DNA of 64,000 bases from Marinoscillum pacificum (GTDB taxonomy: Bacteria; Bacteroidota; Bacteroidia; Cytophagales; Cyclobacteriaceae), in assembly GCF_024714495.1 (NCBI RefSeq), contig NZ_JAMZMJ010000005.1:1-64000 (forward strand), read 5' to 3'. Shown piece by piece: positions 9,862 to 16,290 of this stretch. Each line of letters begins with the position of its first letter. The stretch's first letter is position 1. The notes under the pieces are model-generated. The model was not told where the DNA came from. It ran no database searches and saw only the letters and a list, made by a program, of their open reading frames with translations. The position numbers were made by a program, and so were the translations under genes.

Positions 9862-9915
9862 CGTCAGATAAATACTGACAGAATGTCATCATCTAAAATT
9901 GGAATCGTATCTTTG
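9862..9915 (+). promoter_or_regulatory. Promoter region of the miaB operon with TGTCAG-type boxes
   Basis: TATCTTTG (9908-9915) matches the Bacteroidota -7 element TANNTTTG exactly, 24 bases before the miaB start; no clear -33 TTTG is seen. Upstream lies an inverted repeat GTCAG-N7-CTGAC (9863-9879) and a further TGTCA (9884-9888), the same box found six times before groES. Binding by the operon's own sigma-54-type activator is a hypothesis. Confidence 0.5.
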
Positions 9916-9938: not shown

Positions 9939-11399
9939 ATGACAGAAGTGATTGCAGATTTGGAAATACTGGATCAGAAAAATGATCAGGATGAGAGCTG
10001 TGGCGTAAGAATTTCCAAGGAAGGCACTGACGACAAAGCCAGAAAACTGTACATCGAGAGCTATGGATGTCAAATGAATTTCTCTGATAGTGAGATTGTT
10101 ACATCCATTCTTGAGAAAGAAGGCTTTGATACTACCTCATCTTTTGAGAAAGCAGATGTTATCCTTTTGAATACCTGCTCTATCAGAGAGAAAGCTGAAA
10201 TAACGGTAAGAAAACGACTTACCCAATTCAATAAAATCAAGGAAGAGAAACCCGAAATCACCATTGGAGTATTGGGTTGTATGGCCGAACGATTGAAATC
10301 CAAACTTCTGGAAGAAGAGAAGATTGTTGACCTGGTAGTTGGTCCAGATGCTTACAGAGATCTTCCGAACCTGGTTAAAAAAGCAGAAGATGGTGAGAAG
10401 GGAGTAAATACTTTCTTATCAAGAGAAGAGACTTATGCAGACATCTCTCCTGTTCGATTGAACTCAAACGGTGTTACAGCTTTCATTTCAATCATGAGAG
10501 GATGCGACAACATGTGTTCTTTCTGCGTAGTGCCATTTACTAGAGGTAGAGAGCGTTCTCGTGATCCACTTTCTATCGTAAAAGAAGCACAAGACTTATT
10601 TGATCGTGGTTACAGAGAAGTGACGTTACTTGGACAAAATGTAGACTCCTACAAGTGGTCTGATGAAGAAAACAACAAAGCTCGCCTGGAAAAGCAAGGA
10701 ATTGCTGAGATTGTCAACTTTGCCAACCTCCTAGAAATGGTCGCTCAAGTGAGTCCTGAATTACGAGTTAGATTCTCTACTTCTCACCCGAAAGACATTA
10801 CAGATGAAGTACTTCATACTATGAAAAAGTATGAAAACATCTGCAAATACATTCACCTTCCTGCACAAAGTGGCAATACCCGAGTGTTGGAATTGATGAA
10901 CAGAACCTACGACAGAGATTGGTATATTAATCGTGTAGATGCGATTAGAAACATTCTGGGTCAGGAATGTGGAATTAGCTCGGATATGATTGCTGGATTC
11001 TGCACAGAGACTGAAGAAGAGCATCAAGACACTTTGAGCCTGATGGACTATGTGAAGTATGACTTCTCTTACATGTTCTTCTACTCGGAAAGACCAGGTA
11101 CGCTGGCCGCGAAAAAGTATGAAGATGATATTCCATTAGACACCAAGAAAAAACGTCTAACAGAAATCATCAATAAGCAACAAGAACACTCTTTGGAGAG
11201 AAACAAACTGGACATTGGAAAGACGTTCAAAGTCCTAATAGAAGGATATAGTAAGCGTTCTAAGGATGATGTTCAGGGAAGAAATAGTGCCAATAAGGTT
11301 GTAATCTTCAGAGATAACAATTATCAAAAAGGTCAATACGTAAACGTAAAAGTGAATGACTGTACTGCAGCCACACTTTTCGGTGAAGTAGTTGCATAA
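9939..11399 (+). CDS. miaB: tRNA-2-methylthio-N6-dimethylallyladenosine synthase
   Basis: MiaB is a radical-SAM enzyme that adds the 2-methylthio group to i6A37 of tRNAs reading UNN codons. The 486-residue protein has the N-terminal UPF0004 domain with its three cluster cysteines (C44 in SYGCQMN, C80 in [10 protein letters not shown]114 in LGCMAER), the radical-SAM CxxxCxxC at C189, C193 and C196 ([10 protein letters not shown]), and a C-terminal TRAM domain from about residue 418. The block FTRGRERSR after the cysteines is typical of MiaB rather than RimO or MtaB. It is the first gene of an operon and ends 3 bases before the sigma-54 activator gene. Confidence 0.96.
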
Positions 11400-11402
11400 T
11401 CG

Positions 11403-12701
11403 ATGGATTACAGAATAGATTCAGAAATACAGTCAGTCAAGCAGCGTTTTGAGATCATTGGTAATTCTTCCAAGCTCAACAATGCGATCAGGATAGCTAT
11501 GCAAGTAGCCCCTACCGATATGAGTGTGCTCATTCAAGGGGAAAGTGGTGTTGGTAAAGAGTCTTTCTCTAAGATCATCCACAGCTTATCACACAGAAAG
11601 CATGGTCAGTTCATAGCAATTAACTGCGGAGCCATTCCTGAAGGAACGATTGATTCTGAATTGTTTGGTCATGAGAAAGGCTCTTTTACAGGTGCTCATG
11701 AAGCACGTAAAGGATATTTCGAAGTAACAAACGGTGGCACCATCTTTCTAGACGAAATCGGAGAAATGCCAGTTGGCACTCAAGCACGATTACTCAGAGT
11801 ATTAGAAAATGGCGAATTCATCAAAGTAGGATCTTCTAAGGTTCAAAAAACAGACGTACGAGTAATTGCCGCAACGAATGTGGAGTTGCATGATGCTATC
11901 TCTAACAATAAATTTAGAGAAGACCTCTATTATCGTCTAAACACCGTTCCCATTCAGGTACCTTCTCTTCGAGAGCGTGGTGATGATGTATTGTTGCTGT
12001 TCAGAAAATTTGCGACAGACTTTTCAGAGAACTATAGCACCAAGCCAATCAAGCTAGATGATAATGCCAAAGAAGCACTCTTGAAATTCCGTTTCCCAGG
12101 CAATATTCGTCAATTAAAGAATCTGGTAGAGCAAATCAGTGTATTGGAAATGGAACGTGAAATTTCAGCAGAAACGCTGTTGAAATATTTACCAAAAACC
12201 ACCTCCTACCTACCAGCTCTAGCCAACCATATTGAGAATAAAGAGAATTTTTCTGAGCGAGACATTCTTTACAAGGTTCTCTTTGACATGAAGCGTGATA
12301 TGTCAGAAATGAAAACCTTGATTCATCAGATATTGTCAGAAGATGGCAATAGAAGTGAAATTTTATCTGAACATAAGCGTTTGTTCAATGACATGGAGTC
12401 ATTCCCTGCGGAAGCTCCTGCAGAATATTCCGAACCAGAGCCTGCTCCTTACAAAGCTCCTATCTTATTAGATTCTCACAGGGAGAACTTGGATGAAGAC
12501 GACTCTAGTTACGAGATCGAAGACATCACGCATGAAACGGAAGAAGATGAATCGCTCTCTTTAGAAAAAAAGGAGAAAGAAATGATCATCATGGCATTGA
12601 AAAAGAACAACAACAAGCGTAAATATGCGGCAAGGGATCTTGGCATTTCTGAAAGAACATTATACCGAAAGATTAAGCAGTATGAGATCGATAATATTTA
12701 G
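11403..12701 (+). CDS. Sigma-54-dependent transcriptional activator (AAA+ and Fis HTH, no sensor domain)
   Basis: The 432-residue protein starts almost directly with the AAA+ domain: Walker A GESGVGKE (46-53), sigma-54 contact loop GSFTGA (93-98, a tolerated variant of GAFTGA), Walker B GGTIFLDEIG (111-120) and a sensor II region near FPGNIRQLKN. An acidic, probably disordered linker (about 310-390) leads to a Fis-type helix-turn-helix at about 404-430. There is no receiver, PAS or GAF domain, so its control must come from expression level, a partner protein or the linker. It lies between miaB and lptE in an envelope-export operon, close to groESL, whose promoter has the sigma-54 form. Targets are unproven. 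Confidence 0.92.
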   Translation: MDYRIDSEIQSVKQRFEIIGNSSKLNNAIRIAMQVAPTDMSVLIQGESGVGKESFSKIIHSLSHRKHGQFIAINCGAIPEGTIDSELFGHEKGSFTGAHEARKGYFEVTNGGTIFLDEIGEMPVGTQARLLRVLENGEFIKVGSSKVQKTDVRVIAATNVELHDAISNNKFREDLYYRLNTVPIQVPSLRERGDDVLLLFRKFATDFSENYSTKPIKLDDNAKEALLKFRFPGNIRQLKNLVEQISVLEMEREISAETLLKYLPKTTSYLPALANHIENKENFSERDILYKVLFDMKRDMSEMKTLIHQILSEDGNRSEILSEHKRLFNDMESFPAEAPAEYSEPEPAPYKAPILLDSHRENLDEDDSSYEIEDITHETEEDESLSLEKKEKEMIIMALKKNNNKRKYAARDLGISERTLYRKIKQYEIDNI

Positions 12702-13206
12702 TTGCTGTATACTTGGAATTGCAGCTTTGGCCGGATGTGGAGTCTATGGCTTCACTGGTGCATCTATTTCTCCAGATGTGAAGACCATTTCCATTGGTAC
12801 GTTTTACAACAACGCTACCTTGGGTCCATCCAACATGAGTATTTTGTTTACCGAAGCGATTAAAGATTATTACCAACAAAATACAAGCTTAACCCTGGTG
12901 GACGATAATGGTGATTTGCAATTGGAAGGGTTTGTTGCAGATTATAAAATCACTCCAGTATCTGCTAGTGCTTCAGGGAATAACAGCAATGCGGACTTTT
13001 CCAGCACATCAAGAATTACTATTACTGTGTCGTGTAGTTATATAAATACAAAGGATGATGAGTTTGATTTTGATAAAAATTTCTCATTCTTTGTCGATTA
13101 CGACCAAAATTCAACCGACCTAGCCTCCGAAGAACAAGCATTTGTTGAAGAAATCTTTGATCAAATCATACTGGATATCTTCAATGCTTCTGTGGCAAAT
13201 TGGTAA
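12682..13206 (+). CDS. LptE-like lipoprotein (LPS assembly)
   Basis: The start chosen is ATG 12682, which gives a 174-residue protein with a good lipoprotein signal (lipobox LAGC) and overlaps the end of the activator gene by 20 bases; an upstream start at 12625 would put a hydrophilic extension before the signal and is unlikely. After the Cys the sequence GVYGFTGASISPDVKTISIG and a predicted alpha/beta fold match the LptE family of Bacteroidota. LptE plugs the LptD barrel in the outer membrane and helps insert LPS. Divergent family with low sequence identity, so the name is given from fold pattern and operon position next to secG rather than strong motifs. Confidence 0.8.
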   Translation: MRSIIFSCCILGIAALAGCGVYGFTGASISPDVKTISIGTFYNNATLGPSNMSILFTEAIKDYYQQNTSLTLVDDNGDLQLEGFVADYKITPVSASASGNNSNADFSSTSRITITVSCSYINTKDDEFDFDKNFSFFVDYDQNSTDLASEEQAFVEEIFDQIILDIFNASVANW

Positions 13207-14694: not shown

Positions 14695-15063
14695 ATGTAC
14701 GCAGTAATCGTAAGTGTTATCATCCTTGTGGCTTTGTTATTGATTTTAGTAGTTCTTGCTCAGAACCCAAAAGGTGGAGGACTATCTAGCCAATTTGGTG
14801 GTGCTGGTACTCAGCAAATCATGGGTGTAAAGAAAACAGGTGATATCCTAGAGAAATTAACTTGGGGCTTTGCAATTGCTCTTCTAGTATTGACAATTAG
14901 CACCAACTTTGTAATCGAAGAAAATACACAAACAATCACCTCTCCTAACCTGGAAAACGCTCAGGAGTCTATTCTTCCACAGCAATCTATTCCAGTAGAA
15001 TCAGGTGAGGCAATTGATGATCTAGGATTAGAAGAAGAAGCTTCTTCTGACTCTACGAACTAA
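14695..15063 (+). CDS. secG: Preprotein translocase subunit SecG
   Basis: SecG is the small accessory subunit of the SecYEG channel in the inner membrane. The 122-residue product has two transmembrane helices (about 3-23 and 55-75) separated by the characteristic loop QNPKGGGLSSQFGGAGTQQI, followed by an acidic C-terminal tail typical of Bacteroidota SecG. It starts one base after the TPR protein gene and is the last gene of the miaB operon. Its last 11 bases overlap the 3' end of a converging gene, with no terminator hairpin visible between them. Confidence 0.93.
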   Translation: MYAVIVSVIILVALLLILVVLAQNPKGGGLSSQFGGAGTQQIMGVKKTGDILEKLTWGFAIALLVLTISTNFVIEENTQTITSPNLENAQESILPQQSIPVESGEAIDDLGLEEEASSDSTN

Positions 15064-15772
15064 TCTCAGTTAACTTCCTCACAAGTAGTCTTTTTGCTAC
15101 TGGAAGTACCGTTTGAGGTAAAGGAAATTTGATCTTACTGATCACCAGAAATGTAGCTGGATTTGGCAATTCCCAATAGCGTTTTGCCAAATCCAGCTTT
15201 ATTTTTTCATAGGACCTACTAAAATCCTTAAAGTCATCAAATAAGTAAGTCGTATTGATGGCACGATACCTTTCGTTGGATTGTTCCAAAACAGACATCT
15301 GGTATCGGTAGACCTTTACTTCCCGTTTGGCATCTTGATTGATCAACACATACCCCTCCTGGTTATACAAAGGCGTTAGTCCAACAGAGTCCATCTCCAT
15401 ATTTTCTTCCACCAAATCGAACAACTCCTTCCCCAGCCCAATGGCCTCTTCCAATCTTGGCAAGGCAAACGAAATTATTGACTCCAGTTCTTCCATGAGT
15501 TCATCATCTTTCACCATTCGCTTGTAAGTGAAGCTAAGCTTTTTGAAATCCGCCTTACTGATGGATTTGGGAAAGCTTTCATAAATCACTTCCTTGTTGT
15601 CTTTCACCTTTTGGAGGTTCTTGTAGTGAAGTATCAAATCTGACAAAAAAGGATATAACTCCGCTAAATCAAAACGCTCACGGATGTCTTTTAAATAGGC
15701 TAACAAGATGTACTTCTTGTACTCATAATCTATCATTCCTTCTGTCAGCCAATCATGTTTAAGATCTGTCAT
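15053..15772 (-). CDS. Conserved hypothetical cytoplasmic protein
   Basis: The 239-residue product is not one I can name. It has no signal peptide or membrane segment and is predicted mostly helical (many Leu/Lys/Glu heptads at 20-150), with a mixed C-terminal part ending in a basic PVAKRLLVRKLTEISS segment. It converges on secG with an 11-base overlap of coding ends, and its upstream region is shared back-to-back with groES. Codon use looks like that of its neighbours, so recent transfer is not indicated. The start ATG 15772 gives MTDLKHDWL, a plausible N-terminus. Confidence 0.75.
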   Translation of the reverse strand: MTDLKHDWLTEGMIDYEYKKYILLAYLKDIRERFDLAELYPFLSDLILHYKNLQKVKDNKEVIYESFPKSISKADFKKLSFTYKRMVKDDELMEELESIISFALPRLEEAIGLGKELFDLVEENMEMDSVGLTPLYNQEGYVLINQDAKREVKVYRYQMSVLEQSNERYRAINTTYLFDDFKDFSRSYEKIKLDLAKRYWELPNPATFLVISKIKFPLPQTVLPVAKRLLVRKLTEISS

Positions 15773-15830
15773 ATTGAGATAAGAATTTTAACCTATCTAA
15801 AATTTAAAACTCATTTTCCAAAATGGCAAG

Positions 15831-15920
15831 CTGTCAGTTACTGACAGGAATATTCTTTGACTGACAGATAGAAACCACAAACTGAACTTTTGTCAGTACA
15901 GCATGACAGAATTCATGACA
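15831..15920 (+). promoter_or_regulatory. Cluster of six TGTCAG/CTGACA boxes upstream of groES
   Basis: Boxes occur at 15831-15837, 15841-15847, 15861-15867, 15891-15897, 15904-15909 and 15916-15920. The first two form the 17-bp palindrome CTGTCAGTTACTGACAG; boxes four and five form TGTCA-N8-TGACA. The array sits 20 to 110 bases upstream of the sigma-54-type promoter, where an enhancer-binding activator would bind. Function is inferred. Confidence 0.6.
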
Positions 15921-15939: not shown

Positions 15940-15956
15940 TTGGCATACTCTATGCT
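15940..15956 (+). promoter_or_regulatory. Sigma-54 (-24/-12) promoter of groESL
   Basis: TTGGCATACTCTATGCT has GG at 15942-15943 and GC at 15954-15955, exactly ten bases apart, and keeps TTGGCA and TGCT of the sigma-54 consensus. Transcription would start near 15967, about 45 bases before groES. No CIRCE element and no TANNTTTG element were seen in this 239-base gap. Confidence 0.7.
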
Positions 15957-16011: not shown

Positions 16012-16290
16012 ATGTCAAAAGTTAATTTCAAACCACTAGCTGATAGAGTTCTGGTAGAACCTGCGGCAGCTGAAGAGAAAACTGCTTCTGGAATCATCAT
16101 TCCTGACACAGCGAAAGAGAAGCCTCAGAGAGGTGAGGTTGTTGCTATTGGTACTGGTAAGAAAGATGAGCCAATCAATGTAAAAGTTGGTGACAAAGTA
16201 CTTTATGGCAAATATTCTGGTACAGAGATCAGCATCGATGGCAAAGAGTATTTGATCATGAAGGAAGCTGACATTTACGGAATCGTTTAA
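16012..16290 (+). CDS. groES: Co-chaperonin GroES
   Basis: The 92-residue protein is the heptameric lid of the GroEL folding chamber. The GroES pattern is complete: [12 protein letters not shown] at the N-terminus, the mobile loop [15 protein letters not shown] that docks on GroEL, and the C-terminal [12 protein letters not shown]...[13 protein letters not shown]. It precedes groEL by 41 bases with no terminator between them, forming the classic operon. The upstream gap carries a sigma-54-type promoter and repeated boxes instead of the usual HrcA/CIRCE control. Confidence 0.98.

Follow-up and report, generated by a model that had tools for sequence, protein, structure and literature searches.

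The window analyzed here is a whole stretch of 64,000 nucleotides from Marinoscillum pacificum (Bacteroidota; Bacteroidia; Cytophagales; Cyclobacteriaceae), in which groES and groEL are preceded by a -24/-12 element, two copies of a 15-bp palindrome and, further upstream, a gene for a putative enhancer-binding protein (EBP), here called EBP1 (Table 1). The gene directly upstream of EBP1 is presumably miaB (named from its sequence and not by a family search), and a small membrane protein between lptE and groES is likewise taken to be secG-like from its sequence.

Table 1 Features of the groESL and EBP1 region in the window
Feature	Positions	Strand	Remarks
Palindrome CTGACAGAATGTCAT before the miaB-EBP1 operon	9875..9889	+	16.5 bits, best in the window; predicted autoregulatory site
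TAnnTTTG element (housekeeping -7-like), reads TATCTTTG	9908..9915	+	
miaB-like gene (presumed)	9939..11399	+	3-nt gap to the downstream EBP1
EBP1, PspF-like enhancer-binding protein	11403..12701	+	PF00158 1.8e-68, PF02954 1.1e-11 (Pfam)
lptE	12625..13206	+	PF04390; listed ORF overlaps EBP1, true start probably further downstream
secG-like small membrane protein (presumed), 122 aa	14695..15063	+	
Conserved ORF, 239 aa, divergent from groES	15053..15772	-	Pfam: no match
Distal enhancer-like palindrome ATGGCAAGCTGTCAG	15823..15837	+	PWM 12.8 bits
Proximal enhancer-like palindrome CTGAACTTTTGTCAG	15882..15896	+	PWM 12.6 bits
Sigma-54 (-24/-12) promoter of groESL, TTGGCATACTCTATGCT	15940..15956	+	Start ∼15967 predicted by the -24/-12 rule
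groES, 92 aa	16012..16290	+	
groEL, 545 aa	16332..17969	+	Name from its sequence

A preliminary description of this DNA had proposed that groESL is transcribed from a sigma-54 promoter with GG-N10-GC spacing, placed some 45-55 bases before groES. Both the spacing and the position agreed with the sequence: GG lies at 15942-15943 and GC at 15954-15955 with 10 nt between them, and 55 nt separate the end of the element (15956) from the groES ATG at 16012. The element has one mismatch to TGGCAYNNNNNTTGCW and contains the TGGCAC/T-N5-TTGC context of sigma-54 promoters. In the window, GG-N10-GC occurred 245 times on both strands, and TGGCAYNNNNNTTGCW with up to two mismatches gave 75 matches vs 61.5 in shuffles; in the 6.4-Mb genome, TTGGCAYNNNNNNTGC was found at 20 places vs 12 for the reversed pattern. 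No exact TTGGCAY-N6-TGC other than the groES element was present in the window. Judged by this single sequence alone, the evidence for the element is weak and near chance, and conservation was therefore used as evidence instead. The earlier failure to see TAnnTTTG or CIRCE here was confirmed in that no TAnnTTTG was present in the 239 nt between 15773 and 16011 and the best match to CIRCE (TTAGCACTC-N9-GAGTGCTAA) before groES mismatched 7 of its 18 arm positions. HrcA gave no match in this genome, and rpoN was identified by a PF00309 match.

A genome scan with the strict TTGGCAY-N6-TGC pattern was rejected as a regulon list, most of the 20 places lying within ORFs. Outside ORFs of at least 120 aa, it was found before groES, before a gene which we take to be katG-like, before a small ORF preceding a PspC-like ORF, and at two other loci (L066 and L078). 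One of these matches, TTGGCACACGTCATGC (L072:1501-1516, minus strand), lies 84 nt upstream of the katG-like ORF of the same genome and is a possible sigma-54 promoter, and another, TTGGCACACCAGTTGC (L062:1501-1516, plus strand), lies 16 nt ahead of the small ORF.

Conservation was examined across the family (60 genomes, ∼57 other genera), and 58 of the genomes gave a groES match; 57 other loci and the window were aligned by the ATG (n=58), and motifs were scored within 130 nt of it. TGGCA[CT] was present at all 58 loci (shuffle mean 4.3), TGGCA[CT]-N6-TG at 55 (shuffle mean 0.34, maximum 3) and the strict TTGGCA[CT]-N6-TGC at 25 (0.045 in shuffles). Upstream of groES, TAnnTTTG was found at 5 of the 58 loci, a level like that of shuffles (mean 4.1). 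It is this conservation in 55-58 of 58 loci that makes the groES element significant. The -12 GC did not always keep its C: the dinucleotide was GC at 32 loci, GA at 13, GT at 12 and GG at 1, so that 26 of the 58 lacked it. The clpB promoters fitted the -24/-12 rule more poorly. Lack of conservation in related genomes had been named beforehand as a refutation; the element proved to be conserved throughout the family and, in varied form, in the class.

In Flavobacterium psychrophilum, a fish pathogen from a different order of the same class, 5'-end RNA-Seq mapped sigma-54 (SM4) starts with -24/-12 motifs, and such starts precede groES-groEL, lon, dnaK, grpE-dnaJ, htpG, skp and clpB (accessible part of PMC9723704). 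With these mapped starts and the conservation across family and class, we regard the use of the groESL promoter by sigma-54 as almost certain. A computed survey of sigma-54 regulons published in 2025 also found GroEL, GroES, DnaK, DnaJ and GrpE to be enriched behind sigma-54 promoters in Bacteroidota (Flavobacteriia, Bacteroidia and Cytophagia) and Planctomycetota (accessible part of PMC12316311). Control of chaperones by sigma-54 in this phylum is already known, and what is newly proposed here is a candidate activator and its DNA site. As far as the accessible parts of these sources go, the survey offers promoter matrices only, with neither activator nor enhancer site (PMC12316311), and the F. 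psychrophilum study left the activators open, with three PF00158 proteins, and gave no enhancer site (PMC9723704). No paper naming the chaperone activator was found in open-access PMC (subscription papers were not covered), and groES and GroEL are not mentioned in the accessible part of PMC3162934.

The 58 groES upstream regions were rich in the half-sites TGTCA and TGACA (112 and 100 occurrences vs 20.6 and 16.2 in shuffles; 212 vs ∼37 when summed). The best palindromic layout was CTGACA-N3-TGTCAG (consensus CTGMCA-N3-TGKCAG, 15 bp), with a log-likelihood of 558.6, compared with 546.2 for a layout centred on one half-site and up to 532.7 for a single half-site. Because the 15-bp model was only slightly ahead of the half-site models, the true binding unit is uncertain. 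The PWM was trained on groES upstream regions only, yet at the cut-off of 9 bits used for other genes it detected sites before grpE in 19, dnaK in 20 and clpB in 20 of 20 genomes (1.4-1.6 of 20 in shuffles), the one grpE miss (L086) being a misread gene start; of 543 windows of 160 nt drawn at random from these loci, 8.8% reached this score. The exact palindrome CTGNCANNNTGNCAG occurs at four places in the M. pacificum genome, three of them inside ORFs, and the only copy outside a long ORF lies 62 nt upstream of grpE. At the groES locus of the window, both palindromes lie upstream of the -24 GG, the proximal one with its centre at a distance of 53 nt (∼-78 relative to the predicted start) and the distal one at 112 nt (∼-137); the distal copy overlaps the start of CTGTCAGTTACTGACAG at 15831-15847. 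At L184, L185 and some flavobacterial loci (for example, L289 and L313), the groES half-sites were located in a hairpin with a T run after it, as though the terminator of the preceding gene also served in an enhancer.

The palindrome sites were helically phased to the -24 box. Their centres fell at about -20, -30, -41, -52, -62, -72, -82, -93 and -104 relative to the -24 GG. For the 149 sites of the groES set, the Rayleigh nR2 was 72.2 and 10.5 bp was the best period among 5-25, vs a maximum of 9.6 in 500 trials with uniform positions; when only the highest-scoring site of each promoter was kept (122 sites), R was 0.90 and nR2 98.3 at 10.5 bp, again the best period of 5-25. When phasing was measured from the ATG, nR2 of the groES set dropped to 9.2 and the signal was mostly gone. 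Comparable values were obtained in class families outside the training family (28 sites, R 0.93, nR2 24.0; 0.5 from the ATG), at a set of named loci (34 sites, R 0.82; at least one genome, L293/G084, shared with the sample) and in HrcA-less genomes of other classes (8 sites, R 0.80). It should be noted that these statistics are inflated by the relatedness of the genomes, but one common phase was kept for many distances and genes alike. Of the two groES sites of the window, the proximal one was about in the family phase, and the distal one was not, being ∼2.4 nt off.

The preliminary description had inferred that chaperonin synthesis would depend on an enhancer-binding protein, a suggestion that remained general, naming neither an EBP nor enhancer sites; a candidate, EBP1, could be identified in the same window, 4.6 kb upstream of groES. 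EBP1 meets the criteria for a bacterial enhancer-binding protein, having a Sigma54_activat AAA+ domain (residues 18-185), a GAFTGA-type loop (GSFTGA) and a DNA-binding domain, a Fis-type HTH (387-427) whose recognition helix, GISERTLYRKIKQY, is nearly invariant. A lid and a variable linker of ∼120 residues lie between the two domains, the linker containing a conserved helix near 285-311 according to the alignment and an AlphaFold model; the model (mean pLDDT 62, shallow alignment of 12) was used for this helix only. There is no N-terminal regulatory domain, as the AAA+ domain begins at residue 18.

Of the 60 family genomes, 59 had an EBP1 ortholog with at least 61% identity, in some cases fragmented at a contig end or by a frameshift. 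The single exception (G005) also lacked a groES match, and a gap is therefore likely. All 22 class genomes in a 90-genome sample of the phylum contained EBP1 (54-72% identity excluding the M. pacificum genome, one partial). At 42 of 58 family loci, EBP1 was located on the same strand 3.4-7.2 kb upstream of groES; the remaining 16 had no EBP1 within 8 kb, including 5 with <1.4 kb of upstream sequence, and thus the linkage is not universal. Among the 80 named loci, 26 contained both genes, those of Dyadobacter, Pedobacter, Flavobacterium and Tenacibaculum included; in all 26, EBP1 shared the strand of groES and lay 2.9-5.7 kb upstream of it. In F. psychrophilum, an EBP gene followed by lptE (locus tags 0733-0732) is found near groES (0729; accessible part of PMC9723704). 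EBP1 at L009 (G028) is split over two frames by a frameshift or an assembly error, and EBP1-like proteins with 35-41% identity were seen in KSB1 and Gemmatimonadota records (L350, L354 and L356-L359). In the absence of binding, expression or mutant data, we consider it likely that EBP1 is the activator of the groESL promoter.

The palindrome was also observed before the operon of EBP1 itself. A palindrome of at least 11 bits preceded miaB-EBP1 at 66 of 75 loci (0.5% of shuffles), and at 60 of those 66 a TAnnTTTG-like element started 22-35 nt after it; in the window, TATCTTTG lies 33 nt from the palindrome, start to start. Thus, the palindrome covers the -33 region. The -7 pattern TAATTTCG was added after these upstream regions had first been viewed, and one of an original 76 rows was dropped (27% identity to miaB). 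PspF, whose binding site overlaps its own sigma-70 promoter, represses itself. The arrangement links the palindrome with the operon of EBP1 and, by analogy, suggests autorepression of the PspF kind; repression is itself inferred, and we somewhat favour the view that EBP1 represses its own operon. At 16 Bacteroidales loci miaB was not adjacent, and a site of at least 12 bits within 60 nt upstream of EBP1 was found at only 3. As a candidate feature, the palindrome near EBP1 was weak or absent in Bacteroidales, Balneolales, KSB1 and Gemmatimonadota.

The distribution of HrcA and CIRCE was compared with that of the sigma-54 element in the phylum sample. HrcA was found in none of the 22 class genomes and in 50 of the 68 other genomes. 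Upstream regions of groES were read in 59 of the 89 genomes having the gene (61 places); the cut-off for the sigma-54 score (6.5) was chosen, and T allowed as the fourth base (TTGGT), after the sequences had been viewed. Within the class, 20 of 23 upstream regions passed the sigma-54 score, none had CIRCE and 21 had the palindrome. The corresponding numbers in other classes were 0, 26 and 6 of 27 where HrcA was present, and 9, 0 and 7 of 11 where it was absent. CIRCE/HrcA and the sigma-54 element are mutually exclusive among the sampled genomes. However, EBP1-like proteins were also found in genomes with HrcA and CIRCE (for example, 45-47% full-length identity in family f11), which speaks against a simple account. 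Some HrcA-less genomes outside the class have TTGGTACGG...TTGCA or TTGGCAC...CTTTG before groES (L218, L220, L223, L224, L232 and L242 in family f21; L206, L212 and L213 in f10), and the groES promoters of these two families perhaps represent a separate or older sigma-54 takeover.

On this basis we propose that sigma-54 RNA polymerase would wait at the -24/-12 promoter of groESL (15940-15956) and that EBP1, sitting on the upstream 15-bp palindromes, would open it with ATP. The same activator and site would drive dnaK, grpE(-dnaJ) and clpB, making EBP1 a general chaperone (proteostasis) activator that may stand in place of the HrcA/CIRCE of the phylum's other classes, and through the palindrome over the miaB-EBP1 housekeeping promoter EBP1 may limit its own synthesis. 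Binding of EBP1 to the palindrome is inferred; we hold the whole model, in which EBP1 at palindromes drives these four targets from sigma-54 promoters, to be likely.

The proposed system resembles several known ones in part. HrcA-CIRCE also controls groESL, fills the same regulatory role in the phylum's other classes and controls dnaK elsewhere; in contrast, HrcA is a repressor of a housekeeping promoter and is missing from all 22 sampled class genomes. Like PspF, EBP1 consists of an AAA+ domain and a Fis HTH without an N-terminal regulatory domain. It differs in having ∼120 extra residues with a conserved helix between the AAA+ lid and the HTH, in its score of 255 bits (below the NCBIfam TIGR02974 cut-off of 443.55) and in its predicted targets, which are chaperones, no linkage to psp being seen. 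Activators of the NtrC/NifA type are likewise Fis-HTH AAA+ proteins that act on sigma-54 from palindromic sites upstream, but their enhancers usually lie ∼100-150 bp upstream and act by DNA looping (accessible part of a review, PMC7057263), whereas the centres of the chaperone sites come as close as ∼45 nt to the predicted start and are helically phased. According to the same source, PspF is restrained in trans (PMC7057263). Lacking a sensor domain of its own, EBP1 would have to be restrained by a partner protein. A response to heat or misfolded protein is inferred, and we lean towards an EBP1 activity that answers a proteotoxic signal, no sensor having been identified. Our most far-reaching reading, which remains tentative and which we would not yet back as a whole, is that EBP1 acts as the class's master activator of proteostasis, an AAA+ protein without a sensor that replaced HrcA/CIRCE, drives groESL, dnaK, grpE and clpB from near, phased palindromes with little or no looping, represses its own operon and is checked through the conserved linker helix, on which a signal from a chaperone or from misfolded protein acts.

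GroEL is normally essential, and a second, weak housekeeping promoter could provide basal groESL expression, leaving sigma-54 for stress only. Two promoters are indeed described for remFG-spr of F. psychrophilum (accessible part of PMC9723704), but the 239 nt upstream of groES contain no TAnnTTTG. A promoter further upstream or of another type is not excluded, and this arrangement, although unlikely, is the alternative that survives best.

It is also conceivable that another EBP, such as the receiver-domain protein EBP2, or several EBPs activate the sigma-54 promoter of groESL and that EBP1 is a mere neighbour. EBP2 is a receiver-AAA+ protein of ∼385-402 aa (L276:5063-6220 in the M. pacificum genome; also L277:3306-4472 and others) that was no less widespread than EBP1 among the 13 genomes inspected; moreover, 16 of 58 groES loci are not linked to EBP1, and distinct activators were suggested for co-expression clusters in F. 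psychrophilum (accessible part of PMC9723704). However, among 12 EBP2 proteins read (G051 excluded), 11 lacked an HTH and 11 had GAFTSA or GSFTSA in the loop, the exceptions being G061, which keeps the HTH, and G088, which keeps an intact GSFTGA; every residue of GAFTGA is required for open complexes (PMC7057263, as far as accessible). Judging from these sequences, EBP2 is possibly an inactive or DNA-free EBP. A census of EBPs in 15 genomes (cut-off 100 bits) revealed exactly two above the cut-off in G041, G088, G100 and G112, which are near-complete, and in G051 (82% complete). EBP2 ends without an HTH in all of the four near-complete genomes (loop GAFTSA in three, GSFTGA in G088), while their groES upstream regions retain the promoter and palindrome sites. 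Thus, EBP1 is the only EBP found there with its own HTH for enhancer binding. G061 was considered as a genome without EBP2 and rejected, its 482-aa ORF being an EBP2 relative with an HTH; the elimination argument therefore rests on EBP2 without HTH instead. The palindrome before EBP1's own operon also counts against a different activator, which we consider improbable.

Equally improbable, in our opinion, is that a protein other than an EBP, either a repressor or a co-activator, binds the palindrome and governs the miaB-EBP1 operon as well as the chaperones. The site before miaB has the position expected for repression of a housekeeping promoter, and there are no binding data, but sigma-54 promoters require an EBP, the phased positions 20-115 nt upstream of -24 fit an activator, and the recognition helix of EBP1 hardly varies. 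Finally, a chance match at groES, with groESL on a housekeeping promoter, would accord with the near-chance statistics of the single sequence but can practically be dismissed in view of the family-wide conservation, the shuffle-level occurrence of TAnnTTTG and the mapped sigma-54 starts in F. psychrophilum (PMC9723704).

Guts, soils and seas are rich in Bacteroidota, and for their HrcA-less control of chaperones a sigma-54 outline was available with no activator in searchable papers. If EBP1 acts from the palindromes as proposed, its close and phased sites would be unusual for sigma-54 activation, which is usually looped from 100-150 bp (accessible part of PMC7057263). Once an activator gene is named and its proposed DNA site and phasing are defined, the question of chaperone control in these bacteria becomes directly testable.
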